DNA from: Alteromonadaceae bacterium BrNp21-10
GTDB taxonomy: Bacteria > Pseudomonadota > Gammaproteobacteria > Enterobacterales > Alteromonadaceae
Length of the DNA: 64,000 nt
NCBI GenBank assembly: GCA_030418115.1
Contig: JAUHQD010000016.1
Location: 1-64,000 of the forward strand
Direction of reading: 5' to 3'
The notes beneath the pieces are model-generated. The model searched no databases. It was not told the DNA's origin and was given only the letters and a program-made list of their open reading frames with translations. Every line of letters starts with the position of its first letter. The first letter of the stretch is position 1. A program made the translations under genes and the position numbers. Below, one piece after another: positions 4,254 to 40,373 of this stretch.

Positions 4254-4808
4254 TTATCTCTTTTTTGCACTATGTTGTGCATGGGTATTGATTTTCGCAT
4301 GCTGATGTTCAATTTTTTGCATGTACTGCGCTGATTGCAGTAACCCTTTTGCCACATGCTTTTCCACCGTACTCTGGCTTAATTGTAAATAATCGGCTAT
4401 TTCTTTTTGTGTTAAACCGTAGACTTTTTTTAATATAAAAGCTTTGCGTACGTTACCGTCCAGTTGTTCGGTTGCTTTGCAAAACAAAAGGAAGCGTTCC
4501 TTACTGGCAAATTGTGATTCAAAACTTTGGGTATTTAACTCGACAGGCGGAAAAGCAAAATCCTCTAATGAATCGTTATATTTATTATCCCATTTAGCTA
4601 AATGATTTAGAGCTAAATGCTTTGCTGTTTGCAGCATATAACTACGAACGTACTTGATTTCGCTTTTGAGATCCGCTTCATAACTGCGAATAAAGGTTTC
4701 TTGCACAATATCATCAATGTCGTCACGGCTGACAAATCTTCTGAGCAAGTGTTTTACCGCATTGGTATTAGGGAGAAATCTGCTGATAAACGAAGATTGA
4801 TTAGACAC
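4254..4808 (-). CDS. ECF-type RNA polymerase sigma factor (FecI-like)
   Basis: Small sigma-70 family factor of 184 residues with region 2 (about 15-80, including DDIDDIVQETFIRSYEAD and the promoter-melting area) and region 4 (about 115-165, with the helix-turn-helix GLTQKEIADYLQLSQSTVEKH). The DDIxDIVQETF box is typical of FecI-like factors. It would direct transcription of the receptor gene and probably its own row. It precedes fecR by two bases. Its own promoter must lie in 4809-4925, just after the esterase stop, so it may be read separately from the sugar genes or by read-through. The C-terminal tail is unusually rich in H, Q and K. Confidence 0.88.
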   Translation of the reverse strand: MSNQSSFISRFLPNTNAVKHLLRRFVSRDDIDDIVQETFIRSYEADLKSEIKYVRSYMLQTAKHLALNHLAKWDNKYNDSLEDFAFPPVELNTQSFESQFASKERFLLFCKATEQLDGNVRKAFILKKVYGLTQKEIADYLQLSQSTVEKHVAKGLLQSAQYMQKIEHQHAKINTHAQHSAKKR

Positions 4809-12447: not shown

Positions 12448-14088
12448 TTACTTGCCTATTGCGACGGTTAAGGTTGAGTTACAGGTTCTGAATATATCTA
12501 ATTCTGGGCGATACAACTTACTAGATACTTGCGTCAGTCCTAAAATAGTATCGAAAATATCATCATGAGATAATGATTGCATAACAAGCTTATCAATACA
12601 TCCAGCATACTCGGTATTCTGCAATTGATTACTCCAATATAGCAGTGGTACTTCGGTTTGTTCTTTTGGTGCGATACTGTACGGGAAACCGTGTAGATAG
12701 AGCCCTTTTTCCCCTAAAGACTCCCCATGGTCGGATATATAAAGCATGGATTTAGTCTGCACATCCGTATTATTCAATACGTCGATAATTTTACTTAGCA
12801 CGTAGTCGGTATAAGCAATGGTATTGTCGTAGGTGTTTTCTAACTCTAAAGCTGAGCAGTTTTGAATATCACTTCTTGGGCAATCAGGAGTAAATACACG
12901 ATGCTGTTGCGGATAACGGCGGTAATAGGTGGGCCCATGTGAGCCAATCATATGCAGTACGATCAAGGTGTTGTCTGCTTCGCTATTCGCTATTTTGCGT
13001 TTGAGTTCTTCCAGTAATATTTCATCAAAACAATATTTGCCATCGCAGAGCTCATCGTTGGAGGTAGGCGAAATGGTAAGATTGTTAACTCGGGCACAGA
13101 CACCTTTGCAACTACTGTTATTGTCTATCCATAATACGTCCACTCCAGCGCGATGAATGATGTCTAAAGCATTTTCTTGGCTTTCTGCCTGTCGTTGATT
13201 AAAGGTGTCTCGGCTAAGGCGTGAAAACATACAAGGTACTGATATCGCAGTGGCTGTGCCGCAAGAGGTCACATTACCGAAAGACTTCACCCCGCGACTT
13301 GGGGTAAATGCATTGGTTGGTTTGCCATAGCCATTGAGGGAAAAATTCTTTGAACGCGCTGTTTCGCCGACTACCATTACCGTAATAGATTTTGTATTGG
13401 GTGCAGAAGTAGAGTGCGGCGATTTATCCAATACTTGAAAAGGTAAAGGTGGAAAAAAGTATTTGTCCCGCAAGAATTTATAAGCAGCATTGTAAAATGC
13501 AAAAGGCGTAATATAAGCGCCAAGCTGGCGATTGTTACGGCCCACAGATGCATAGTCTTGGTAAAATAGTGAGGCAATTAACCCACAGACAATAACGCAG
13601 ATCAGGTTAACCACTAGCCAGTTTTTTATCCGACTCAACATGCTTTGAGTGTTCTTATAGCGTCCCAAAATAAGGCTTGGGATCACGCCAAAAACGGTAA
13701 TATAAAACAGTAGACTGCCGTTGAGGTAAGACAACGCCTCTCCAGTATCGGTTTCCACCATATTTCGAATCATGTGTTTGTCGAAGATTACGCCATAATT
13801 TACAGTCGCATAGAACAGCACCGCCGAAATCAAAATACTCAGGATCACCACAGGCTTAATAAAAGTAACCAGTGATAACCAACTGAGAATAATCACGCTT
13901 AAGCAAAATAGCAGAATGGGGACGGATAGCAGAAACAGCCAATTCCACTGACCGGTTGACACTGTCGCGGTATAGACTTTGTACAAAAAATGACTATTGA
14001 GAACGAGGACAATATACAACGATGCATAAATCAGCATTGCCGCATAGGTTTTAGGGACTAGCTTGTCTAAGGCTTGAAACATCAACAT
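12448..14088 (-). CDS. eptA: Lipid A phosphoethanolamine transferase
   Basis: Inner-membrane enzyme of 546 residues that adds phosphoethanolamine to lipid A phosphates and lowers binding of cationic peptides. Five membrane helices fill residues 1-180; the periplasmic sulfatase-fold domain follows with the metal/nucleophile motif VVGETARSKNFSLNGYG (Glu and, further on, the catalytic Thr in the CGTATAISVPCMFSR segment), HMIGSHGPTYY, and SDHGESLGEKGLYLHG. Cysteines are paired as in EptA proteins. It is followed by dgkA and preceded by a degenerate PmrA-box-like site at 14133-14149, and the PmrAB-like regulators are encoded 2 kb away. It could be named eptA or mcr-like; chromosomal placement with dgkA favours the intrinsic enzyme. 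Confidence 0.92.
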   Translation of the reverse strand: MLMFQALDKLVPKTYAAMLIYASLYIVLVLNSHFLYKVYTATVSTGQWNWLFLLSVPILLFCLSVIILSWLSLVTFIKPVVILSILISAVLFYATVNYGVIFDKHMIRNMVETDTGEALSYLNGSLLFYITVFGVIPSLILGRYKNTQSMLSRIKNWLVVNLICVIVCGLIASLFYQDYASVGRNNRQLGAYITPFAFYNAAYKFLRDKYFFPPLPFQVLDKSPHSTSAPNTKSITVMVVGETARSKNFSLNGYGKPTNAFTPSRGVKSFGNVTSCGTATAISVPCMFSRLSRDTFNQRQAESQENALDIIHRAGVDVLWIDNNSSCKGVCARVNNLTISPTSNDELCDGKYCFDEILLEELKRKIANSEADNTLIVLHMIGSHGPTYYRRYPQQHRVFTPDCPRSDIQNCSALELENTYDNTIAYTDYVLSKIIDVLNNTDVQTKSMLYISDHGESLGEKGLYLHGFPYSIAPKEQTEVPLLYWSNQLQNTEYAGCIDKLVMQSLSHDDIFDTILGLTQVSSKLYRPELDIFRTCNSTLTVAIGK

Positions 14089-14132
14089 TCACTTCGAATG
14101 ACTACAACATGTTGACAAGATAACTAGCCAAC

Positions 14133-14149
14133 CTTTAGTAAAGCTGAAG
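14133..14149 (-). promoter_or_regulatory. Degenerate PmrA-box-like site upstream of eptA
   Basis: Two half-sites CTTTAG and CTGAAG are separated by five bases, each one base away from the CTTAAG half-site of the PmrA box. It lies about 45 bases before the eptA start. Its spacing matches the two better sites at 16192-16208 and 16251-16267. Confidence 0.45.
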
Positions 14150-14184
14150 ACAAACTGATTTTTGTATATTTATTTAACCTGAAG

Positions 14185-16176
14185 TTACTTGGTCTCAAGG
14201 CGATACAGTTGTTGCTTATAAGCCAAATTGGCAAACAGCACATGGGCAAGGGCTTTGTTTTTTAGCAACACATCCGCGGCAATAGCTGGGCGCTGAGATT
14301 GACTTTTATCCTGCAAATTGTAGCGCCAGTAACTTTCTGGTTGTCCTGGAGTGAGGATCACCGCTTGACCATTCTCCAAATAAGCATAGTTATCGTAGTA
14401 CTGCATAATGGCCCGTTCGACGGGATACTCTTTGGTTAGATCCAACCCCGTCATTGGCGTTGGGCTATTAACCCCTAATAACGACAGTAGTGTGACCGGT
14501 AAATCAATTTGGCTTACTAATCGATTATCCTGCTTTTGGTCAAAGTCGGTATTGAGGATAACTGCCGGCACATGAAACGATTTAATGGGTACAGGTTCTG
14601 AACCAAATACCCGAACATCATGATCAGCCACAATTAAAAATACCGTATTCTGCCAATAGTCTTGTTGCTTGGCTTTAGTTATAAACTGACCTAAAGCATA
14701 GTCAGCATATTTAATCGCTAAATCCCGTTTATAGGTGCTGCTATCATAACCTTGCGGTAAAGAGACATTGTCTGTGGGGATATCAAAGGGGTCATGATTA
14801 CTGGAGGTAAAAATTAAACTAAAAAACGGCTTGCCAGCATTATTTAACTCGGTTAATTCGCTGTCGGCTTGGGTAAATAAGTCTTCATCCGAGACCCCCC
14901 AAGAAGCAACAAATTTGGGGTTGGCAATATCATGGGAGTCGACAATATCCTCAAAGCCATTGCCTAGAAAAAAGCTCTTCATATTGTCAAAATGGCTTTC
15001 ACCGCCATAAATGAATTGTGTGGTGTAACCTTCGTTGGCCAGTACGTCAGCCAATGTAAAAAACTGCTGCTGTGACTTGGATAATTTAACCACCGAACGT
15101 GATGGCGAAGGTAAAAAGCCACTAATAACCGCTTCAATCCCCCTTACCGAACGGGTTCCTGTGGCGTATAAGTTATTAAATCCCCAACCTTGTTGATACA
15201 GCTTATCTATTTCTGGGGTAATGCCGTTGCCGCCTAAACTACCCACAAAACGGGCGCCTAAACTTTCCTCAAGAATAATAACTAGATTTTTCCCTTTAAT
15301 ACTGTTGTAAGGTTGGTTATGGGCCAGCGTTGGCAGTTCATCAGAGACAAAGTTCTCGCGGTAGCTTGCTTTGCGGACAACATCTATTATTTGAGCGGTG
15401 GGCAAATCACCATACAGGCTGGCGGCACTTTTTTCATTGCCCATATTTTTAATTGCAAAAGCTACGCTATAAGGAGAATTAAGTACTAAAGAATTAACTA
15501 AGGAATCTTGAGAGAAAAACACCAATGACGGATTTAATGGGCGATGCCCTATTGTTCCGCGAGCGCATAGCAATATAACCATAAAGGTTAGTAATAAACT
15601 GATACCACCGCCTAACTTCGAACTATTTGGCGTATCCCCATTAATTTTGCTACATAAGCGATACGCCATGATGGCGGCAGCACTACAAAATACGGTTGCC
15701 AATAAAAGGCTAATTAAATGGCCGCTGATCAACATTGAAAAGACTTCTTTGGGATAGGCCAGATATTCTACAAAGAGTCGGTTAGGGCGTACGTCATACT
15801 GCAAAATAAAGGTAGGAGTGGCAATCTCAAACAGCACTACGAGGGTGGTAATGATCACCATGTACAAGGTTTGCAACTTAGTTAACCAAGGTTTAAGTAC
15901 ACTTGAGCAATGGCCTATAACCACGAGTAAAAATAATGGTGTGGTTAAATAGGCGGCAGTACTAAGATCGACCCGTAAACCACCGAGTAATAATTTATCG
16001 AGTTGGAATAATTCAATACGTTCAAATTGCCATAACATCAGACCTAGACGACTAATAAAAAAAATAAATAATAGTGAGAAGAATAAAATTCCAATCGGCT
16101 TTAGAGGATTAATATGTTTTTTTACAACGATATAGTCTGACACTATTACAACTTTTAAGGACAGTATTTGAACCAA
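14185..16176 (-). CDS. LTA synthase-like sulfatase-family membrane phosphotransferase
   Basis: Membrane protein with about five N-terminal helices (roughly residues 25-205) and a periplasmic sulfatase-type domain (about 290-610). The motif V-I-I-L-E-E-S-L-G gives the metal-binding Glu, Y-A-T-G-T-R-S-V-R-G the likely catalytic Thr, and V-A-D-H-D-V-R-V-F-G the late metal site. This is the layout of lipoteichoic acid synthase and of Gram-negative phosphoglycerol or phosphoethanolamine transferases. The target is not known; addition of phosphoglycerol or phosphoethanolamine to an envelope glycan or lipid is likely. The 16176 start is TTG; a GTG at 16143 fits the PmrA-like site (16192-16208) better and may be the true start. 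Divergent from the PmrA-like regulator gene. Confidence 0.8.
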   Translation of the reverse strand: MVQILSLKVVIVSDYIVVKKHINPLKPIGILFFSLLFIFFISRLGLMLWQFERIELFQLDKLLLGGLRVDLSTAAYLTTPLFLLVVIGHCSSVLKPWLTKLQTLYMVIITTLVVLFEIATPTFILQYDVRPNRLFVEYLAYPKEVFSMLISGHLISLLLATVFCSAAAIMAYRLCSKINGDTPNSSKLGGGISLLLTFMVILLCARGTIGHRPLNPSLVFFSQDSLVNSLVLNSPYSVAFAIKNMGNEKSAASLYGDLPTAQIIDVVRKASYRENFVSDELPTLAHNQPYNSIKGKNLVIILEESLGARFVGSLGGNGITPEIDKLYQQGWGFNNLYATGTRSVRGIEAVISGFLPSPSRSVVKLSKSQQQFFTLADVLANEGYTTQFIYGGESHFDNMKSFFLGNGFEDIVDSHDIANPKFVASWGVSDEDLFTQADSELTELNNAGKPFFSLIFTSSNHDPFDIPTDNVSLPQGYDSSTYKRDLAIKYADYALGQFITKAKQQDYWQNTVFLIVADHDVRVFGSEPVPIKSFHVPAVILNTDFDQKQDNRLVSQIDLPVTLLSLLGVNSPTPMTGLDLTKEYPVERAIMQYYDNYAYLENGQAVILTPGQPESYWRYNLQDKSQSQRPAIAADVLLKNKALAHVLFANLAYKQQLYRLETK

Positions 16177-31407: not shown

Positions 31408-31770
31408 TTAAAACTCATAAGCAATGCGAATACCGGGGTGATCTACAGGAAAGTGTTGGCCATTACGAGTGACCATAATCAGGTTATGTTGTTGCGCTGC
31501 AGCTAGGGTAATGGCATCGGGCAATTTCATGTTTTCGGCTACTTTGATATTAACCGCTAACTCCCTGACATCTCGATTAATATCGATAATCTGATATTGT
31601 TTCAAATAAGCTTCGGTTGTTTGTTTGTGCTCGGGGGCGGCGCTAGAGACAATCTGCATCCACGAAATAACGCTCAAGTATTTATCCTCATAGCGCGCCA
31701 ACTCCTGTTGTGCCTCTACTACACCTTTGAGGTAATCGATGACTAAGCAGGTATCAAATAACGCTTTCAT
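31408..31770 (-). CDS. PIN-domain VapC-like toxin, probably degenerate
   Basis: Small PIN-fold protein (120 residues from the ATG at 31770, which overlaps the antitoxin stop by four bases; an extra upstream 9 residues are unlikely). PIN proteins use four acidic residues to cut RNA. The first is present in ALFDTCLVIDYL and the third in L-P-D-A-I. The second, normally the Glu in the W-M-E motif, is Gln here (ISWMQI), and the fourth, normally Asp in T-R-N-x-x-D-F, is His (TRNGQHF). Hence ribonuclease activity may be lost, while fold and antitoxin binding stay. The comparison residues are recalled from family knowledge. Confidence 0.8.
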   Translation of the reverse strand: MKALFDTCLVIDYLKGVVEAQQELARYEDKYLSVISWMQIVSSAAPEHKQTTEAYLKQYQIIDINRDVRELAVNIKVAENMKLPDAITLAAAQQHNLIMVTRNGQHFPVDHPGIRIAYEF

Positions 31771-31949
31771 GCTGATTCCTCTGAGCCCGGTTGCCACAAC
31801 GCAAAGGCATCCACTTCCTCGGTTTCATAGGTCGCTAGCAACATATTAATCGCCCGATTAATTAACACATTACGAGACACTTTTTCAGTGTCTTTAATCT
31901 GATCAAGCCGGTCAATCTCGGTTTTGGGAACATCGATAATAGTACGCAT
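31767..31949 (-). CDS. Ribbon-helix-helix antitoxin (VapB/CopG-like)
   Basis: Sixty-residue protein with the ribbon-helix-helix pattern: beta strand M-R-T-I-I-D-V-P, then two helices (TEIDRLDQIKD and VSRNVLINRAINMLLATYE). The C-terminal tail is acidic with a Trp, suited to binding a PIN partner. ATGA overlap with the toxin gene gives translational coupling. Antitoxins of this type repress their own operon; a specific operator was not identified. Confidence 0.8.
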   Translation of the reverse strand: MRTIIDVPKTEIDRLDQIKDTEKVSRNVLINRAINMLLATYETEEVDAFALWQPGSEESA

Positions 31950-32182
31950 GTTATATCCTTATTAACGTGGATTGCTGTCAGATGTCACATCCTAGAAGTT
32001 AATAGGGTGATGTGCAAATAATCACCCACAGTGACATTGAATATTAAAGGGAGTTAGGATTGTTCAATTCTTTGAACAGCACGCAGGTGCTGGATAATGG
32101 ATTTACCTTTACATCTGCAATAAATAATAAGAAGTTAGTAAAAGTAAGTTGTAAAAATTATCTAAACAACAAGGAACCCACA

Positions 32183-34060
32183 ATGCGTCAAAAATTCACT
32201 ATTGCGTTAATGGCCGGACTGTTAGCTGCATGCCAACCTTCTTCCGATGTGCAAAAACCAGTTACAACCTCAGCTCCGAGCGCCGAAACCGCTGCAGCAG
32301 ATATGACAGAGTCACAACGAATTAATCATTGGTTCGATGAAAAGTACGAAGAACAGCTGCAAATGAGCCCGTTAGAAATGACATTCTTGGGGCGTAAAGA
32401 CCGATACGATGAATTCGATGATTTAACTGTGGCACAGGAAAAGCGCAAACTAGCTTGGCAAGCAGCCACCGTTGAAGAAATGACTAAGCAGTTTGATTAC
32501 GACAAGTTAGATTTAGAAGCCAAAACTTCTTACGACGTGTGGCTTTACCAGTATGAGCAAGCACGAGCGAATTTACTGTTTATAGAAAACGATTATACGT
32601 TTACCCAAATGAATGGTTTTCAGGCGTTTGCTGCACAATTTTTGATGAGTTTTCATAAAGTGGAAACCGAAAGCGACATGGTCGCCTATAACAAACGTAT
32701 TGGCGGCGTAGCGCGTGGTATTAGCGAGTTATTGGATAGAGCAAAGCACAATGCTAGTAAAGATGTACGCCCCCCCAGATTTGCTTATGAAGGAGTTATT
32801 GAACAAGCGACTAACTTGATCACAGGTGCCCCCTTTACCGACACTGAAGCCGACGCACCATTATGGGAAGACGCTAAGAAGAAAGTGGCATCGTTGTTGG
32901 AACAGGATTTGATATCTGATGATCGGGCTAAAGAATTAGAGGCGCAGGCCAAAGAAGCCTTGGTCACGCAATTCTTACCCACCTACAACGCTTTGTTAAC
33001 TTGGTTTAAAAGCGACATGGAAAACACCGATGCCGAAGCTCAGGGCGCTGGTGCATTACCCAACGGCACTACCTTTTATAACCATATGTTAAAAGCCAGA
33101 ACCACCACAGACTTGACGGCCGATGAAATTCATACCATTGGTCTAAGCGAAGTAGATCGTATCTATAAAGCCATGGAAGCAATTAAAACGCAGGTCGGTT
33201 TTGAAGGCACCTTGCAAGAATTCTTCGTGGATATCAAAAAAGATAAAAACGATGAACGTTTTTATTACCCTAATACCGATGCAGGACGCAAGGCTTATAT
33301 AGATGACACCGAAGCTCACTATGCGGTGCTCAAAGCGCAGTTACCTAACTACTTTGGTATTTTGCCCAAAGCAGATATTGAAGTGAAACGGGTTGAAGCG
33401 TTTAGAGAACAAGACGGTGCCGCTCAGCATTATTTCCCGGGCACGCCTGATGGTTCACGTCCCGGTGTGTATTACGCGCATTTATCAGATATGAGCATGA
33501 TGCCGAAAAACGAAATGGAAGCCGTGGCCTATCACGAAGGGCTTCCGGGTCACCATATGCAAATCTCCATTGCCCAAGAGCTGACTAGCGTACCGCAATT
33601 CAGAACCCAAGCGGGCTTTACCGCCTATGTGGAAGGTTGGGGCTTGTACTCCGAATTATTAGCTAAAGAAATGGGTGGTTATCAAAATGCGTATTCTGAC
33701 TTTGGTCGCCTAGTCACCGAAATGTGGCGTGCGGTGCGTTTAGTGGTGGATACCGGTATTCATGCTAAAGGCTGGACAGAGAAACAAGCGAATGATTACT
33801 TTAAGATCAACACCCCGATTTCTGATGGCGCGATTAAGTCTGAAGTACGGCGTTATTTTGTGCTACCAGGACAAGCGACTGCATACAAAATTGGTATGCT
33901 GAAAATTCTAGAGTTACGTCAATATGCCAAAGATGCCTTGGGTGACAAATTTGATATCCGTGGATTCCACGACACCATTTTAGGTGGCGGCGCCTTGCCA
34001 TTAGGCGTGTTGCAAAAACGTGTTGAGAACTGGGTGTCTGAAGTAGCAGTGCAAATTTAA
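32183..34060 (+). CDS. DUF885-family lipoprotein, probable metal-dependent hydrolase (copy 1)
   Basis: Exported lipoprotein of 625 residues from the ATG at 32183, which has AAGGA 7 bases before it and begins a proper lipoprotein signal (L-L-A-A-C, Cys19). The family hallmark H-E-G-L-P-G-H-H sits near residue 455, followed by Y-V-E-G-W-G-L-Y, both typical of DUF885 proteins and thought to bind metal in a peptidase-like fold. The function has not been settled for this family. A closely similar second copy follows at 34341-36209. An upstream-extended reading from 32060 would lose the lipoprotein signal and is rejected. Confidence 0.85.
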   Translation: MRQKFTIALMAGLLAACQPSSDVQKPVTTSAPSAETAAADMTESQRINHWFDEKYEEQLQMSPLEMTFLGRKDRYDEFDDLTVAQEKRKLAWQAATVEEMTKQFDYDKLDLEAKTSYDVWLYQYEQARANLLFIENDYTFTQMNGFQAFAAQFLMSFHKVETESDMVAYNKRIGGVARGISELLDRAKHNASKDVRPPRFAYEGVIEQATNLITGAPFTDTEADAPLWEDAKKKVASLLEQDLISDDRAKELEAQAKEALVTQFLPTYNALLTWFKSDMENTDAEAQGAGALPNGTTFYNHMLKARTTTDLTADEIHTIGLSEVDRIYKAMEAIKTQVGFEGTLQEFFVDIKKDKNDERFYYPNTDAGRKAYIDDTEAHYAVLKAQLPNYFGILPKADIEVKRVEAFREQDGAAQHYFPGTPDGSRPGVYYAHLSDMSMMPKNEMEAVAYHEGLPGHHMQISIAQELTSVPQFRTQAGFTAYVEGWGLYSELLAKEMGGYQNAYSDFGRLVTEMWRAVRLVVDTGIHAKGWTEKQANDYFKINTPISDGAIKSEVRRYFVLPGQATAYKIGMLKILELRQYAKDALGDKFDIRGFHDTILGGGALPLGVLQKRVENWVSEVAVQI

Positions 34061-34200: not shown

Positions 34201-34340
34201 TTATAGGCAATGCCTAGCGCTCCCCCAAGTTCTGATTATTTACCTTTACATCGATGACGGATCGTAACAGTGTAGTTCGTTATTCATACAGTTAACCGTT
34301 GGCATTATCTAGCAACTCACAAACCATAAGGGAATATACA

Positions 34341-36209
34341 ATGCATCAAAAACTGACCATCGCGTTAATGGCTGGACTATTAGTGGCATGTCAACCAGCA
34401 AGCGAAATGCAAAAGCCGGCGGCTACCGTAGCACCGAGCACAGAAACAGCTGCAGCTGATATGACAGAGTCACAACGCATCAACCAATGGTTTGATGCCA
34501 AGTATGAAGAAGAATTACAAATGAGCCCGTTGATGATGACGTATCTGGGGCGTAAAGATAAATATGATGAATTTGACGACATGTCTGTAGCCGAGGAAAA
34601 ACGCAAGTTAGCCTGGCAAACGGCCACTGTTGAGGAGATGACGACTCAGTTTGATTATGACAAATTGGATTTGGAAGCTAAGACCTCTTACGACGTCTGG
34701 ATTTATCAGTATGAGCAGGCTAGAGCCAATCTGCTTTTTGTGGAGAATAAATATAATTTTGAGCAGATGGATGGTTGGCAAGCGTTTGCACCGCAATTTT
34801 TAATGAACTTTCATGCAGTTGATAATGAAAGCGATATGCTCGCTTATATCAAACGTATAGGTGGCGCGGCTAATGGAATTAGCCAGTTACTGGAACGGGC
34901 TAAACATAATGCCAGCAAGGGCGTCCGCCCACCACGCTTTGCCTATGAAGGCGTAATTGAACAGGCCACAAATGTGATAACAGGCGCACCTTTTACTGAG
35001 TCGGATATCGATTCACCACTACTCGAGGATGCCAAGAAAAAAATCGCAGCGTTGCTGGATAAAGACCTAATTGACGAAGCCCGTGCCAAAGAGCTTGAAG
35101 AATATACCAAAGAGGCGTTATTAGGCCCGTTCGCGCCTAGTTATAGTGCCTTATTAACTTGGTTTAAATCGGATATGGAAAATACAAATGCCGAGGCACA
35201 AGGTGTTGGTGCATTGCCTAACGGCACCACCTTCTATAACCATATGTTAAAAACCAATACCACCACAGACTTGACCGCCGATGAAATTCATACCATTGGC
35301 TTAAGTGAAGTCGATCGTATTTATAAAACCATGGAAGCAATTAAAAATCAGGTCGGTTTTGCAGGCACCTTGCAAGAATTCTTCGTGTACATCAAAAAAG
35401 ATAAAAACGATGAACGCTTTTACTACCCCAATACCGATGAAGGGCGCCAAGGTTATATTGATGATACCAAAGCTCATTACGCAGTAATAAAAGCGCAGTT
35501 GCCTAATTACTTCGGTATTTTGCCCAAGGCAGATATTGAAGTGAAACGGGTTGAAGCGTTTAGGGAACAAGACGGTGCCGCTCAGCAGTATTTCTCCGGC
35601 ACGCCTGATGGCTCTCGTCCCGGTGTGTACTACGCGCATTTATCGGATATGAGTATGATGCCGAAAAATGAACTGGAAGCCGTTGCCTATCATGAAGGCT
35701 TGCCCGGTCACCATATGCAATTATCAATTGCTCAAGAATTGACGAGCGTACCGCAATTCCGCACGCAGGCCTTTTTTACAGCCTATGTGGAAGGTTGGGG
35801 TTTGTATTCCGAATTGCTGGCTAAAGAAATGGGTGGCTATCAAAATCCTTATTCAGATTTCGGTCGTTTGGTGGCTGAAATGTGGCGCGCAGTGCGCTTA
35901 GTAGTGGATACCGGTATTCATGTTAAAGGCTGGACAGAGAAACAAGCCAATGATTACTTTAAGATCAACACCCCGATTTCTGATGGTGCGATTAAGTCTG
36001 AAGTACAGCGTTACTTTGTGCTACCAGGACAAGCGACTGCTTACAAAATTGGTATGATGAAAATCTTAGAATTACGTCAGTATGCCAGAGATGCTTTAGG
36101 TGACAAATTTGATATTCGTGGATTCCACGATACCGTGTTAGGCGGTGGCGCCTTGCCATTGAGTGTATTGCAGAAACGTGTAGAGAATTGGGTTGCTGCG
36201 CAGCAGTAG
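34341..36209 (+). CDS. DUF885-family lipoprotein, probable metal-dependent hydrolase (copy 2)
   Basis: Tandem paralogue of the gene at 32183, 622 residues from the ATG at 34341 (AAGGGA eight bases before). The lipoprotein signal (L-L-V-A-C), the H-E-G-L-P-G-H-H motif and the Y-V-E-G-W-G-L-Y segment are retained; the second half is nearly identical to copy 1 and differences cluster in the first half (about 140-330). A terminator separates the two and each has its own upstream region, so separate control is possible. Both genes look intact. Periplasmic or outer-membrane location is expected from the lipobox. Confidence 0.85.
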   Translation: MHQKLTIALMAGLLVACQPASEMQKPAATVAPSTETAAADMTESQRINQWFDAKYEEELQMSPLMMTYLGRKDKYDEFDDMSVAEEKRKLAWQTATVEEMTTQFDYDKLDLEAKTSYDVWIYQYEQARANLLFVENKYNFEQMDGWQAFAPQFLMNFHAVDNESDMLAYIKRIGGAANGISQLLERAKHNASKGVRPPRFAYEGVIEQATNVITGAPFTESDIDSPLLEDAKKKIAALLDKDLIDEARAKELEEYTKEALLGPFAPSYSALLTWFKSDMENTNAEAQGVGALPNGTTFYNHMLKTNTTTDLTADEIHTIGLSEVDRIYKTMEAIKNQVGFAGTLQEFFVYIKKDKNDERFYYPNTDEGRQGYIDDTKAHYAVIKAQLPNYFGILPKADIEVKRVEAFREQDGAAQQYFSGTPDGSRPGVYYAHLSDMSMMPKNELEAVAYHEGLPGHHMQLSIAQELTSVPQFRTQAFFTAYVEGWGLYSELLAKEMGGYQNPYSDFGRLVAEMWRAVRLVVDTGIHVKGWTEKQANDYFKINTPISDGAIKSEVQRYFVLPGQATAYKIGMMKILELRQYARDALGDKFDIRGFHDTVLGGGALPLSVLQKRVENWVAAQQ

Positions 36210-36304: not shown

Positions 36305-36417
36305 TAGGTGCCCATATTGTCCACTGCGTTGGTTCAGGGCTTGTCGAAGGATGAAATTTAATTGGCTACGCCAGCCGCCATTCCATGGCTTTTTTCGAGC
36401 CCCTCCCAAGGGCCCGA

Positions 36418-36600
36418 GTCACTTTCTTGTGGATAAGAAAGTGACCAAAGAATCCTAGCTCCGCCAACTTTCTGAATCCGAATTAAATGTCCATTCTAAT
36501 ATCGAACCGGCGCGAGGTAGCTTCCTTGCAAAGCGCGCGCCTTGGCAAAACGTCCTGTTTTGCCATTCGACGAATGGTCATTTAATTCGGGAAAGTTGAG
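36418..36600. repeat. Cluster of palindromic intergenic repeats
   Basis: Stem-loops in tandem: an 11-bp perfect hairpin (36418-36428 / 36435-36445), an 18-bp near-perfect pair with one mismatch (36479-36496 / 36572-36589), inside which lies an 8-bp GGCAAAAC/GTTTTGCC hairpin (36544-36564). No coding frame fits. The nested symmetry suggests a REP/MITE-like element. Confidence 0.6.
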
Positions 36601-36692
36601 TCGCAATTTACCGATCTGAAGAGCCGCCAATGAATGTCTCTGTTGTGCCAACAGCAGTAATTCCGCACTTTAATCATAACTTCTGGTCTACG

Positions 36693-36767
36693 CCCAAAGC
36701 GGACTAAATAACTTAACGGGTTGAACGGTAAACTTGGTGTGACAAATGATACGTTTCAGCGAACCTG
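36693..36767 (+). repeat. Left inverted repeat of the VPA1262-like gene cassette
   Basis: This 75-base block is matched, in reverse complement, by 40172-40244 with only a few substitutions and a 2-base gap, about 90 percent by hand alignment. The outer end begins CCCAAAGCGGAC. The two copies face each other across the single gene 36794-40105. Confidence 0.85.
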
Positions 36768-36779
36768 ACCTCGCAGGTT
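36762..36779 (-). terminator. Small hairpin past the VPA1262-like gene
   Basis: AACCTG (36762-36767) pairs with CAGGTT (36774-36779), 15 bases beyond the minus-strand stop. No T-run is visible, so it is weak evidence of a terminator. Confidence 0.3.
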
Positions 36780-36793
36780 CTATGTGAATAAAA

Positions 36794-39700
36794 CTAACTA
36801 GTCGTTTTTTCTTCTCGTAATTTATCAGCTTTTTCAATAAATGAAAGTAAGTCTTGTTCTGTAGTCCATTCAGAATGAGGCCTTGTCATGGATAAATTAT
36901 GTGCTTTTTCAGTTAGACTATTTAGCTCACAGTGATTGTTAACTCCTAGTTCATTAAGGTAGTACTCACACCATTTTGTAAATGCAAAAATCCAAAGTGA
37001 CACTTTTAAGGCATCGTTCCATTTTGACCAGTTAGTTGTACTTGCAAGAGGTTGATGAATAACTTGTCTCTGTTTATTAAGAGCTTCACCAAGTAATTGT
37101 AAAGATACACTTTGCTGCTTTGAGCTACTGTACGCAAAAAGATAGGCACAAATATTAGTTGCTTTCGCTTCACAGCCACTAGTAAATAGAAGGGAGTTAC
37201 CTCTGTTTTTCTTGTCTAGTGAGTCTAATAAGTCTTTGAGCCAGATTTTACTTGCATCATCAAAATTTGCACGAGAGTTAGATAGAAGAGGATTAATTAT
37301 ATCGTTAAATTGCCATAATTCCATCCACCCTAATTGGTTCATATGCCCTCTCATAGAATCTATAAGAAGGTCTAAATCTTCATAAAGAACTTCTGGCGGT
37401 AGCGAACTATGCAATTCTGAGATTACTTTTTCACAAAGCTCTTTATTTTCTTCTCTTTTAGACATGCGGTTAAGCACCCATCCATAGAACTGAATTTGCT
37501 CTTTAGTGCTAAAGGCCGAAACTTGAGCCAACACATCTTCAACATCATTTAACGTTTTCAGTTTTTGCTCAAGAATATTCCACCCAAGCCACTTAATGAA
37601 AGGTAAGCTACTATTTAATAATGTTTTTTGCTGGAAATCATGAACATTATCAAATGCATGGCTCAATGATATTTCATTTATAATCTGACCTAGAAGTGAT
37701 AGCCGAATCGTTTCTGTAGATGAGAACTCACTAGTTAAGTGGTTAACCTCTTTTTCAATATGCTTTACAAGTATCTCGGGGGCGTTAACCCAAATTAGTT
37801 TAACTGCGTATAACTCAGCCCATGTAAGACATTTATGTTTGACCATGCGGTGAAAATGTTCAAGCCTGATAGGATCACTTAAACAGTCTTTAAGTGAACT
37901 GTTAAAGTAGCAGGGATCAATTACAGATACATAATTTTCATCATCAGTTCTCTTTCTTTGAAACGAAGATGATAAAAAAGCAGATAAAAAAGCTATAAAC
38001 TTTGTCTCTTTTTTTAGCTCTGTGAGGTTGTCATCCCCGACTGGGGTGTAAGCTAATATTTCACCAGCTATATTCCATGCCGATTCTGAATTAACCAGCC
38101 CTCCTCCTATTTCTCTGGCACAATTGATAAAACCTTTCTTTTCTAATTTATGCAGTGACTTGTTTTCTAGAATGCCCAATTCTGCCATTTTATTTTTTAA
38201 GTCAGCTCTACTTAGGCCTTTCAATTTCGGTTGTTCGAGCCATAAAGCTAGCAAGTCACCAGCAATTTCATTATCAAGAACTGTTAGAGGTTCATGCAGT
38301 ACTGTTGCCTCTTCTTTTATGTTTTCAGAATCAAATAACAAAGATAAAGCATCACGTGAGTTATCTTCATTAGGTATATTCAACTTTTGAACTAAATCGA
38401 ATGAGTATTGATTGACCTTATACAATACATCTGTAGGAATTGGAGTTATCAATAAAGGGTAGTTTTCAGCTGCTTTTTGAAATGAGTTAGATAAGTGAAA
38501 CCCTTCAATAGGAAGCCCATCTTGTCCATGAATCAATATATACCGATCGTGGAGACTTCCTTCTTTCATTCCATATATAACAAGCTTGTTATTTTTAAGC
38601 TGCTTTTTGTGATGATTACAGTTGGCTATCAGGTTATTGATTCCATTGCTTACTTTAGTGTCAGAATCCCTTCTTCTTGGTTTATCGGGATCTATAGGCT
38701 TTGGAATACTTCTAAAAACTGTACAGCTTGCCATTGAGGGAATATAAAGTGTCAATAAACCCAATCCAGCATCCTCAAAGTAAGGATCTAAGATAGTTAT
38801 ATGTTGTTTATGGTGCTTCTCTATTATCCCCTTAAACCACTCTACAAACTGTAATCGTCCTTCACCACTACTCTCACTGATTCTAGGGAAAAACTGCCCT
38901 TTAGATTTCTTTGGATACAGTGTTTTGAAAGTGTTCTTTAGTTGCTGATTTACCGTAACCCATGAGTCAACCTTTCTACCACCAATCTTAGTATTCGATG
39001 CATGATTCTTTAAAGAAGAAGTCAAAGCTTTAACAACTCGGTCACTTTGTTTTTTATTAGTTGTTTTATCAAGCCAATCAAAATTTACAGAGTTAGAATT
39101 ATTATCTGAAAATCCAATATTAAAGTTCATTTCACGAACATAACTTACTTTGTAGCGGCTACAAAGATATCCCTCATTCGGTGGTGAGGCTGGAAACCCG
39201 AATATTTCAATATATGTGCTATCCGCTGATTTGAATAACTTCTCAGTTAAATCAAAAGTGTAAGTGAACAGCCCATCTTTGTTTTTTGTCGTTTCAACTA
39301 TACTGGAATGCAAAATTTGTGAGCCGCTTTCAACACTTAGACGAAACTGAAACCGTTCAAATTTTGGTAATTGTGAAGATTCAAATTGAATTTTAACCCC
39401 TTCATTGTGATTGAAATCTACTGTTAAAAGGCTCTTTTCATGTTCATCAAGCGTGGGGAAAATTAGTAATTCAATATCACCTAATCTAGCGTTATCAGCC
39501 TTACCAAAGTCCATCCCTGTGTCAGTATTAAGACTATTTACAATCATCTCTATTACATTGATATCATAGCTTTCCAGTACGGATAATAACTTTAGTTTGT
39601 CATTTTGTATGACTGATGCACTTAAAGCTCCAGCACACCCATGTGGGCTTGTCAGGGTATGTGGAGAGTGAGCATCACGGTTGAGTAGATATGCTACTGG

Positions 39701-40105
39701 CCTATAAATAACATTTTCATTGTCAAAACGAGTACTACCAAACTTCTTTGATAGCTTTTTCGAATGAAACCTCAGATTTAGCTCTGTACTTATCTCTTCA
39801 ATAGTCTTGCCTTCAACAACTTTTGTAAGAAGCTCTTTACATTGACTACTTGAAATATAAAGGTTTAACTTATGTACACTAGCTTTAATGGAATCAAAGG
39901 TCTGAGATGTATCTTTATCACTGCCTGACCAAGTATCATTGATAAAATTATAAGGGAGTAAGCGGCCATAAATTATGCGGTTTTCTATGCCTTCGTTATC
40001 GTTAATCTGTAGTATCCATAACTGCAATACACATGAGTGTTCTCCTATAGAGAACAATTTTTCTAATCTACTATCACTTAACAGATCAGTAAGATCGTAA
40101 GACAT
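36794..40105 (-). CDS. Large AT-rich protein with PLD-like motif, probable VPA1262-type defence protein
   Basis: Protein of 1103 residues, no signal peptide or membrane segment. The N-terminus (1-330) resembles what I recall of VPA1262-family proteins. Residues about 435-550 look like a PLD-fold half: I-L-D-P-Y-F-E-D (438-445), then L-H-D-R-Y-I-L-I (518-525) in place of HxK, then H-L-S-N-S-F (537-542). Residues 600-1100 are predominantly helical and unassigned. One PLD half suggests a dimeric or defence-type nuclease. The composition is AT-richer than neighbours (19/60 G+C in 37021-37080 versus 29/60 in argG at 26281-26340). It is flanked by 74-bp inverted repeats, so it is an inserted gene. 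Anti-phage function is inferred; the name is from memory, not a search. Confidence 0.55.
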   Translation of the reverse strand: MSYDLTDLLSDSRLEKLFSIGEHSCVLQLWILQINDNEGIENRIIYGRLLPYNFINDTWSGSDKDTSQTFDSIKASVHKLNLYISSSQCKELLTKVVEGKTIEEISTELNLRFHSKKLSKKFGSTRFDNENVIYRPVAYLLNRDAHSPHTLTSPHGCAGALSASVIQNDKLKLLSVLESYDINVIEMIVNSLNTDTGMDFGKADNARLGDIELLIFPTLDEHEKSLLTVDFNHNEGVKIQFESSQLPKFERFQFRLSVESGSQILHSSIVETTKNKDGLFTYTFDLTEKLFKSADSTYIEIFGFPASPPNEGYLCSRYKVSYVREMNFNIGFSDNNSNSVNFDWLDKTTNKKQSDRVVKALTSSLKNHASNTKIGGRKVDSWVTVNQQLKNTFKTLYPKKSKGQFFPRISESSGEGRLQFVEWFKGIIEKHHKQHITILDPYFEDAGLGLLTLYIPSMASCTVFRSIPKPIDPDKPRRRDSDTKVSNGINNLIANCNHHKKQLKNNKLVIYGMKEGSLHDRYILIHGQDGLPIEGFHLSNSFQKAAENYPLLITPIPTDVLYKVNQYSFDLVQKLNIPNEDNSRDALSLLFDSENIKEEATVLHEPLTVLDNEIAGDLLALWLEQPKLKGLSRADLKNKMAELGILENKSLHKLEKKGFINCAREIGGGLVNSESAWNIAGEILAYTPVGDDNLTELKKETKFIAFLSAFLSSSFQRKRTDDENYVSVIDPCYFNSSLKDCLSDPIRLEHFHRMVKHKCLTWAELYAVKLIWVNAPEILVKHIEKEVNHLTSEFSSTETIRLSLLGQIINEISLSHAFDNVHDFQQKTLLNSSLPFIKWLGWNILEQKLKTLNDVEDVLAQVSAFSTKEQIQFYGWVLNRMSKREENKELCEKVISELHSSLPPEVLYEDLDLLIDSMRGHMNQLGWMELWQFNDIINPLLSNSRANFDDASKIWLKDLLDSLDKKNRGNSLLFTSGCEAKATNICAYLFAYSSSKQQSVSLQLLGEALNKQRQVIHQPLASTTNWSKWNDALKVSLWIFAFTKWCEYYLNELGVNNHCELNSLTEKAHNLSMTRPHSEWTTEQDLLSFIEKADKLREEKTTS

Positions 40106-40373
40106 ATCATTACCTAAAGCTAGTTGGGTTGTTAAATTTCTAACATGAAACTACTGTGGAAACTGTGGGGACAGGTTCGCTGAAACTTATCATTGACCAC
40201 CAAGTTTACCGTTCAACCTGTTAAGTTATTTCGTCCGCTTTGGGTCGAAAAACTGACCTAAATCCAGACTATCAGACAATTTCCAATATGTCTGCTCATC
40301 GCTCAATGGCGCCGGTTGGCGTAGCCAATAAATTTCCATTATTGATGGCAATCCCAAAGGATGCCGATGCTAG
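40106..40373. other. Right flank of the cassette
   Basis: Contains the right inverted repeat and, at 40310-40335, a GTTGGCGTAGCCAATAAA segment that is matched in reverse near 36360 and again, less well, at 41661-41677. No gene is seen. Confidence 0.6.
40172..40244 (-). repeat. Right inverted repeat of the VPA1262-like gene cassette
   Basis: Reverse-complement partner of 36693-36767. It ends CCGCTTTGGG on the outer side. A 2-base difference in length and about five substitutions separate the copies. Confidence 0.85.

Follow-up and report, generated by a model that had tools for sequence, protein, structure and literature searches.

The window analyzed here, a 64,000-nucleotide stretch of the genome of Alteromonadaceae bacterium BrNp21-10 (assembly GCA_030418115.1, contig JAUHQD010000016.1, positions 1 to 64,000), holds a single gene for a protein of the VPA1262 family between two conserved end sequences, which we designate A and B. 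This unit may be one member of a family of small cassettes in Alteromonadaceae, usually with B 5′ and A 3′ of the cargo and mostly without a mobility gene; our confidence in this reading is evenly divided. The same ends recur at other loci, where they pair with each other among the loci sampled and enclose different cargo, and they are rare in the genome to which the window belongs (hereafter the own genome). Several of the cassettes carry a complete phage-defense gene or operon. A more specific proposal, which we hold as tentative and rather doubtful, is that they form a directional class of defense-gene cassettes whose B and A ends are asymmetric; a separately encoded recombinase (possibly a 207-residue tyrosine recombinase) would move them in trans, and entire anti-phage systems would be exchanged at dispersed sites on the chromosome. 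Loci, genomes and contigs are given below by our running labels (L, G and C).

A sequence-only reading of the window had described two inverted repeats of 74 bp, approximately 90% alike, facing each other across one AT-rich gene. The facing arms were confirmed as two aligned blocks, 36693-36739 with 40198-40244 (47 nt, 96% identity) and 36745-36780 with 40159-40194 (36 nt, 86%). The identity of the full arms (86% in a multiple alignment and 89% by BLAST) is about right in that reading, whereas its length was too short, as the arms measure 88 and 86 bp. Its limits for the unit (36693 and 40244) were also too tight, and the conserved end sequence extends to approximately 36638 and 40307. The one long open reading frame (ORF) between the arms, at 36794-40105, has its stop 13 bases from the left arm and its start codon 53 bases from the right arm. 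The other ORFs of at least 80 residues are two short frames (88 and 80 residues) that overlap it on the other strand, and no transposase or integrase was found among the ORFs of this size inspected between the arms. The description of a single gene without a transposase therefore holds, as does that of its composition: the G+C fraction of the cargo is 0.353 compared with 0.430 in 800 kb of the own genome, where 0.25% of 797 segments of 3.3 kb are equally low.

Alignment of copies from the own genome and from relatives indicates that the two sides differ outside a common 12-mer, CCCAAAGCGGAC, which occurs in both window ends. In its main form, A ends ..TTACTTCGGCTATACG, and B ends ..ATAGTCTGGATTAAGGTCAGTTTTCGA. 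Inward of the 12-mer, many copies have in common a core (C) and a hairpin (R) that resembles repetitive extragenic palindromes (REPs). This inner part is shared by A and B and therefore gives the appearance of an inverted repeat; it is optional, being absent, for instance, from the B ends of L061, L065 and L077. Instead of one repeat facing its own copy, as had been proposed, the window thus contains two distinct ends with a common inner part. On visual inspection, the copies of its 12-mer within A are direct and not mirrored, and the arms are up to 91% alike between copies, even across genera. Six pairs (the window, L065, L073, L074, L077 and L078) served to define the A and B classes by eye, and profiles were built from 17 copies of A and 7 copies of B, with the corresponding window end as one of the seeds in each. 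At E ≤ 1e-3, 53 ends (34 A and 19 B) were detected in 39 of the 45 sources sampled. Rfam gave no match at gathering scores in five sources. In L085 (15306-16149, G220), R flanks a 257-residue ORF, judged by eye to resemble a REP-associated tyrosine transposase (RAYT), and because two inverted copies flank this ORF, R may be the REP of the RAYT-like transposase. In L067 (14646-15750, G344), a gene that looks by eye like an IS110-type transposase adjoins an A end whose R hairpin is cut midway, as though the inserted element had divided it.

All ten convergent pairs found within 16 kb consist of one A and one B (each at E ≤ 1e-3), no divergent pair was found, and three A-A pairs and one A-B pair are in tandem (L075, L080, L083 and L119). 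At the observed proportions of A and B, ten mixed pairs have a probability of approximately 4e-4, a value qualified by the fact that only four of them (L061, L118, L121 and L122, found after the classes had been defined) are independent, because the other six pairs defined the classes. Four independent pairs would all be mixed by chance approximately once in 20 (0.46 per pair). The pairing of A with B argues that the two ends differ in role, like the left and right ends of an element. A polarity is also apparent, with B on the 5′ side of the coding majority in seven of the eight pairs within 10 kb (one-sided p = 0.035). For the four A and four B ends of the own genome, the probability of at least two convergent pairs within 10 kb by chance is 1.8e-4 (0.019 expected, 2 seen). 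This figure is favorably biased, because the B end at C1:405.9 kb is absent from the whole-genome BLAST list and was picked up by the profile in sequence retrieved on account of the A end there.

A BLAST search of the own genome with the left arm returned six matches at E ≤ 1, and those near full length are the two window arms and a copy at C1:414 kb. Whole-genome searches with the left arm and the B end, together with profile matches in the fetched stretches, gave four A ends (C8:36.7 kb, C1:414.3 kb, C1:65.9 kb and C7:3.4 kb) and four B ends (C8:40.2 kb, C1:405.9 kb, C1:545.8 kb and C10:1.2 kb). In a background of 40 stretches of 20 kb (800 kb) from the same genome, all matches to the A, B and arm profiles (E ≤ 0.5) fell at the C7 copy, whose stretch had been deliberately included. 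Because this background rate shows them to be rare, the ends are not ubiquitous intergenic palindromes, the case that the sequence-only reading had named as fatal to a mobile unit. Their range is also narrow. With two candidates scored per genome, 20 of the 395 family genomes contained the arm at E ≤ 1e-4; among 98 sampled genomes of the family and order, 3 had it, all from the own family. An exact scan for an inner motif across 84,980 GTDB species genomes gave seven loci, titled Alteromonas, Glaciecola and Paraglaciecola. Plasmids gave no match to the A and B queries, and viral contigs gave none to the exact motifs. The B end of L022 (G000, C1:545149-545860) has no clear A partner; approximately 0.7 kb inward of it, a module-like sequence (CATAAGCGGACATT) lies beside a 140-residue ORF.

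The cargo changes from one pair of ends to another. The own genome has a second A/B unit at C1:405.9-414.4 kb, whose ends are 8.4 kb apart and enclose six genes on the same strand (Table 1). Its helicase matches a GajB-type model of PADLOC, and its ThiF protein matches E1-E2 models. A third unit perhaps extends across two contig ends, if C10 and C7 are adjacent, as we infer. The first of these contigs (C10:1-1241, L090) starts with a 311-residue frame that is LmuA-like (PADLOC E 1.5e-10), has a sub-threshold nSTAND3 match and lies beside a B end. The second (C7:1-3511, L223) opens with a 1,054-residue frame beside a weak A end (32 bits). The two frames possibly represent the beginning and the remainder of a single LmuA-like nuclease-STAND gene; the C7 part was assigned by eye and matched no PADLOC model at E ≤ 1e-5. 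In relatives, the pair of L078 encloses ThsB-type TIR frames and a SLOG-patatin protein, that of L073 an HNH protein like the effectors of cyclic-oligonucleotide-based anti-phage signaling systems (CBASS) together with a 145-residue protein, that of L121 a single FRG-domain gene, and that of L077 the 207-residue tyrosine recombinase and a 585-residue protein (13577-15334, G354) without a Pfam or PADLOC match. A CBASS operon in L072 (cyclase, E1-E2, JAB and two 2TM effectors) is flanked 3′ by an A end and 5′ by a weak B-like element; the latter had an E-value of 6e-5 when 600 bp were searched specifically and of 0.083 in the general search. In L070, a reverse transcriptase and a DEDDh/PDC-S15 protein adjoin an A end, and in L076 weaker ends accompany an AAA_13 protein that belongs to a PADLOC candidate family. 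The G+C fraction of the cargo ranges from 0.355 to 0.466 across units and is lower than that of the flanks in some and higher in others.

The identity of the window cargo, which the earlier reading had suggested, was confirmed by a hidden Markov model: the protein scores 973.1 bits against NF040699.1, far above the curated cut-off of 325, and covers model positions 2-1025 of 1026. It was aligned with five relatives, from two Agrobacterium plasmids, one Shewanella plasmid and genomes G029 and G772. The columns invariant in all six proteins include D440-P441, D474, H519-D520-R521, S539-N540-S541, N548 and P550. The HxR motif followed by SNS resembles what we take to be one half of a phospholipase D (PLD)-type active site. 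The PLD-like half proposed earlier is matched by the invariant HDR, SNS and DP residues at the level of motifs and not by searches. The window protein matched no Pfam family and none of the PADLOC-DB families at E ≤ 1, a sequence search of the PDB gave nothing significant (best E 0.049, unrelated proteins), and a profile of the six proteins had no PDB match at E ≤ 10. AlphaFold models calculated without an alignment, for the whole protein and for residues 385-600, had mean pLDDT values of 36.7 and 38.1, too low to read a fold. In view of these results, the PLD likeness is a resemblance of motifs. The cargo is most likely a defense protein with a PLD-like, perhaps nuclease, half, and VPA1262 would act in phage defense.

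The family is patchy in its distribution. Of 369 genomes of the class, the own genome alone had a match above the cut-off, with one weaker match besides, and the family was found on 5 of 72,556 plasmid records at E ≤ 1e-10; no phage record contained it at E ≤ 1e-5, and peptide patterns found no relatives in the genome-contig and viral-contig collections. Among the 97 other genomes searched as relatives, a single one has the gene; the 96 that lack it include the one other genome of the genus, so that vertical inheritance at a shared place, which would have spoken against mobility, is not what we observe. The G029 gene (matching the family) and the G772 gene (below the cut-off) have no A end nearby, and the only trace of B is a weak partial match (14 bits) approximately 8 kb off in G772. 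The VPA1262 gene and the A/B ends are therefore independent of each other. In the part of the literature available to us, VPA1262 is named only inside islands or as a marker. In Vibrio parahaemolyticus, it belongs to island VPaI-6 (VPA1254 to VPA1270), a 27-kb island with an integrase (PMC1464126), whereas the window gene stands alone between A and B.

Mechanistically, the A and B ends may serve as recombination sites for an enzyme supplied in trans, or as portable homology, and cassettes could then spread between sites and genomes. Of the one-gene unit moved in trans that the earlier reading raised, the cassette is supported by the finding that the same ends enclose other cargo and that the gene is patchy, observations that do not in themselves show movement. 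A Tn7-like reading of the ends, from their resemblance to Tn7 end sequence, is a further conjecture. Two forms of an empty site were tried and rejected. Insertion into a pre-existing palindrome would leave the exact pattern CCAAAGCGGACN{0,30}GTCCGCTTTGG, which is absent from all 395 family genomes. For a direct joint of the outer parts of A and B, no match spans both halves in 22 genomes of genus g5 (inferred to be Paraglaciecola); the three matches extending furthest past the joint, which cover 15 to 22 bases of the A half (78-87% identity), are the B ends of L121, L077 and L118. G127 shares the left flank of L077 as far as the outer boundary of B, beyond which the two differ, and the flanks of L073 were matched in G344 on two different contigs. 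Beside the flank common with the L073 cassette site, L170 (approximately 4690-4790, G344) has by eye a possible integron attC-like sequence. A candidate enzyme is the 207-residue tyrosine recombinase (PF00589), a lead from few copies (Table 1). The copy in L078 lies 1.4 kb outside a B end, and tblastn found no copy in the window or the 800-kb sample of the own genome, the remainder of which was not searched. Motifs of the GAGCG..GCGGWC type occur upstream of two recombinase copies and not of the third. The motif GAGCGAAAAGCGGACATT was considered as the recombinase site and set aside as a weak lead, because it was written from one copy, which makes the comparison circular, and the third copy has none with up to 6 mismatches.

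Several observations, along with the limits given above for the pairing statistics, weigh against a family of moving defense cassettes. Among the 53 ends, 33 are in no convergent pair, within loci that reach only approximately 16 kb inward, and many unpaired ends adjoin ordinary-looking genes. The strict A/B rule is countered by L076, in which a B end converges with a B-like end below the threshold (E 0.0032), and the polarity of L074 is opposite. No defense model matched the scanned proteins of L065 and L074 or the 585-residue protein of L077, and the pairs of L118 (11.4 kb) and L122 (15.2 kb) hold mostly ordinary-looking genes. PADLOC matches (E ≤ 1e-8) were found for 10 of the 34 nearest inward genes and 3 of the 20 outward genes (p = 0.33, not significant), and for 4 of the 8 bracketed units against the same outward genes (p = 0.14). 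The 34 inward genes omit L062, L067 and L069 (insertion-sequence-like by eye) and the unscanned L063, L068, L083, L118 A end, L119, L120, L124, L125 and L127; L123 had no nearest inward gene, and the gene on C7 was scanned separately. The outward set of 20 is likewise partial, and one of its matches is a general transporter ATPase (L073). Because the excess is not significant, the term "defense cassette" rests on particular units. The congeneric genome G001 has no collinear empty junction, the left flank of the second cassette being collinear there and the right not, and four g5 cassettes gave no clean empty junction in relatives. By eye, no target duplication was seen in the flanks inspected, and no recombinase is firmly linked to the A/B ends. 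The unpaired ends, the four tandem pairs and the absence of significant defense enrichment would fit an account in which A, B, the core and the hairpin are an old dispersed intergenic repeat family, a mosaic like REPs, bacterial interspersed mosaic elements (BIMEs) or miniature inverted-repeat transposable elements (MITEs), and foreign genes came by phage, plasmid or transformation into insertion-tolerant places. The occurrence of R around the RAYT-like ORF of L085, and in stretches of G008 and G220 that have neither A nor B, is in line with this account, as is G127, which lacks the cassette at the L077 site and yet has a similar GAGCG-type module at the junction. However, an old repeat family does not readily explain why all ten convergent pairs are mixed (with the caveat on class definition), why the window cargo fits so tightly between the arms (13 and 53 bp) or why the ends are so rare in the own genome. 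We consider it a serious alternative that is nonetheless somewhat unlikely.

Cassettes could also be exchanged by the homologous recombination of the cell between scattered copies of the ends, with no dedicated enzyme. The window unit contains no recombinase, no target duplication was seen, and the likeness of the arms between copies and genera would provide the homology; however, four A and four B ends in the own genome leave few recipient sites, and a fixed pairing with polarity is not expected from homology alone, which makes this explanation improbable. The position of B on the 5′ side in seven of eight pairs, and of the right arm just 53 bp from the start codon, raises the question of whether the ends are instead expression or boundary elements (promoter, insulator or terminator) of defense operons. 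The only promoter-like pair, TTAACA-18-AATGAT (9/12), stops one base before the start codon, the region between arm and gene is poorer in promoter-like sites than its shuffles, the A end has no terminator-like site, and the ends also adjoin unrelated genes, so we regard such a function as very unlikely. As for two unrelated repeats that happen to face each other, the numbers are small and the second own-genome pair came from a stretch fetched for its A end; with 0.019 pairs expected against two seen within 10 kb, and a single, already known match in the 800-kb background, this reading is scarcely credible and is refuted for practical purposes.

Table 1. Features of the window, of the second unit in the own genome and of the candidate recombinase
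Feature	Position	Strand	Evidence
Left inverted arm: 12-mer, core C, REP-like hairpin R	36693..36780	+	inverted-repeat search, alignment
Right inverted arm: 12-mer, core C, degenerate hairpin R	40159..40244	-	inverted-repeat search, alignment
A end, 3′ side of gene: outer A-specific part, 12-mer CCCAAAGCGGAC, core start	36638..36742	+	A profile, 87.2 bits, E 3.6e-25
B end, 5′ side of gene: outer B-specific part with CAGACA..TGTCTG hairpin, 12-mer, core start	40196..40307	-	B profile, 109.1 bits, E 5.8e-32
REP-like hairpin GAACCTG-ACCTCG-CAGGTTC	36761..36780	+	fold of 36754-36785, z -2.68
VPA1262-family protein, 1,103 residues (1,103 codons)	36794..40105	-	NF040699.1, E 1.6e-292, 973 bits; NF040700.1, E 2.7e-117
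Invariant D440-P441 (ILDPYF segment)	38783..38788	-	6/6 aligned proteins; codons checked
Invariant H519-D520-R521, PLD-like HxK/R motif	38543..38551	-	6/6 aligned proteins; codons checked
Invariant S539-N540-S541	38483..38491	-	6/6 aligned proteins; codons checked
Genes of the C1 unit: Sigma70_r4-like (under cut-off), 200-residue protein, M78 peptidase-UvrD-PDDEXK fusion, Multi_ubiq/Prok-E2_E, JAB-ThiF, DUF6527	C1:405.9-414.4 kb	one strand	domain search
Tyrosine recombinase copy, inside A/B pair	L077 12626-13249		
Tyrosine recombinase copy	L077 2227-2898		
Tyrosine recombinase copy	L078 7688-8359		
Tyrosine recombinase copy, remnant	L084 14294-14593		

The surroundings of the unit in the window have features of their own. 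Immediately outside the A end, positions 36382-36608 hold part of a different dispersed intergenic repeat, unrelated to the A and B ends, and 20 of the 23 matches of this region in G001 fall on it. Two adjoining DUF885 genes (32060-34060 and 34299-36209) look like a tandem duplication, and a lone PIN-domain ORF, VapC-like by eye, is located at 31408-31797.

The cassette family, if it is one, bears on the question of how single defense genes and small operons spread without a visible mobile element. The defined pair of ends is a searchable handle that delimits a unit with a precision of tens of bases, and it turns the genes enclosed, such as VPA1262 and that for the 585-residue protein of L077, into defense candidates. 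It also makes mobilization in trans directly testable. Among known systems, mobile insertion cassettes and MITE-bounded genes are like the window unit in having a passenger gene between conserved ends without a transposase. Known mobile insertion cassettes have symmetric inverted repeats of the insertion-sequence type and target duplications, whereas the window ends differ from each other and no duplication was seen. The outermost parts of A and B differ as well, and within the inexact outer limits of the unit, its features are not those of a classical transposon or MITE. Integron cassettes are small directional units with a fixed 3′ element (attC, with mirrored R and L boxes), and defense cargo has been reported in them; the present units appear to differ in having two ends instead of one attC, direct 12-mers in A (by eye) and locations at separate sites. 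The inner hairpin R resembles the REPs and REP-derived hairpins (REPINs) associated with RAYTs, in keeping with its place around the RAYT-like ORF of L085. REPs are reported usually to exceed 100 copies per genome (PMC2817692), in contrast to the whole A and B ends, which number approximately four each in the own genome and enclose kilobase cargo. Among the matches listed in full-text searches of one library, none describes the A/B ends or such cassettes. Passenger genes between conserved ends without a transposase are already known; asymmetric ends with changing, often defense-type, cargo in Alteromonadaceae appear to be new.

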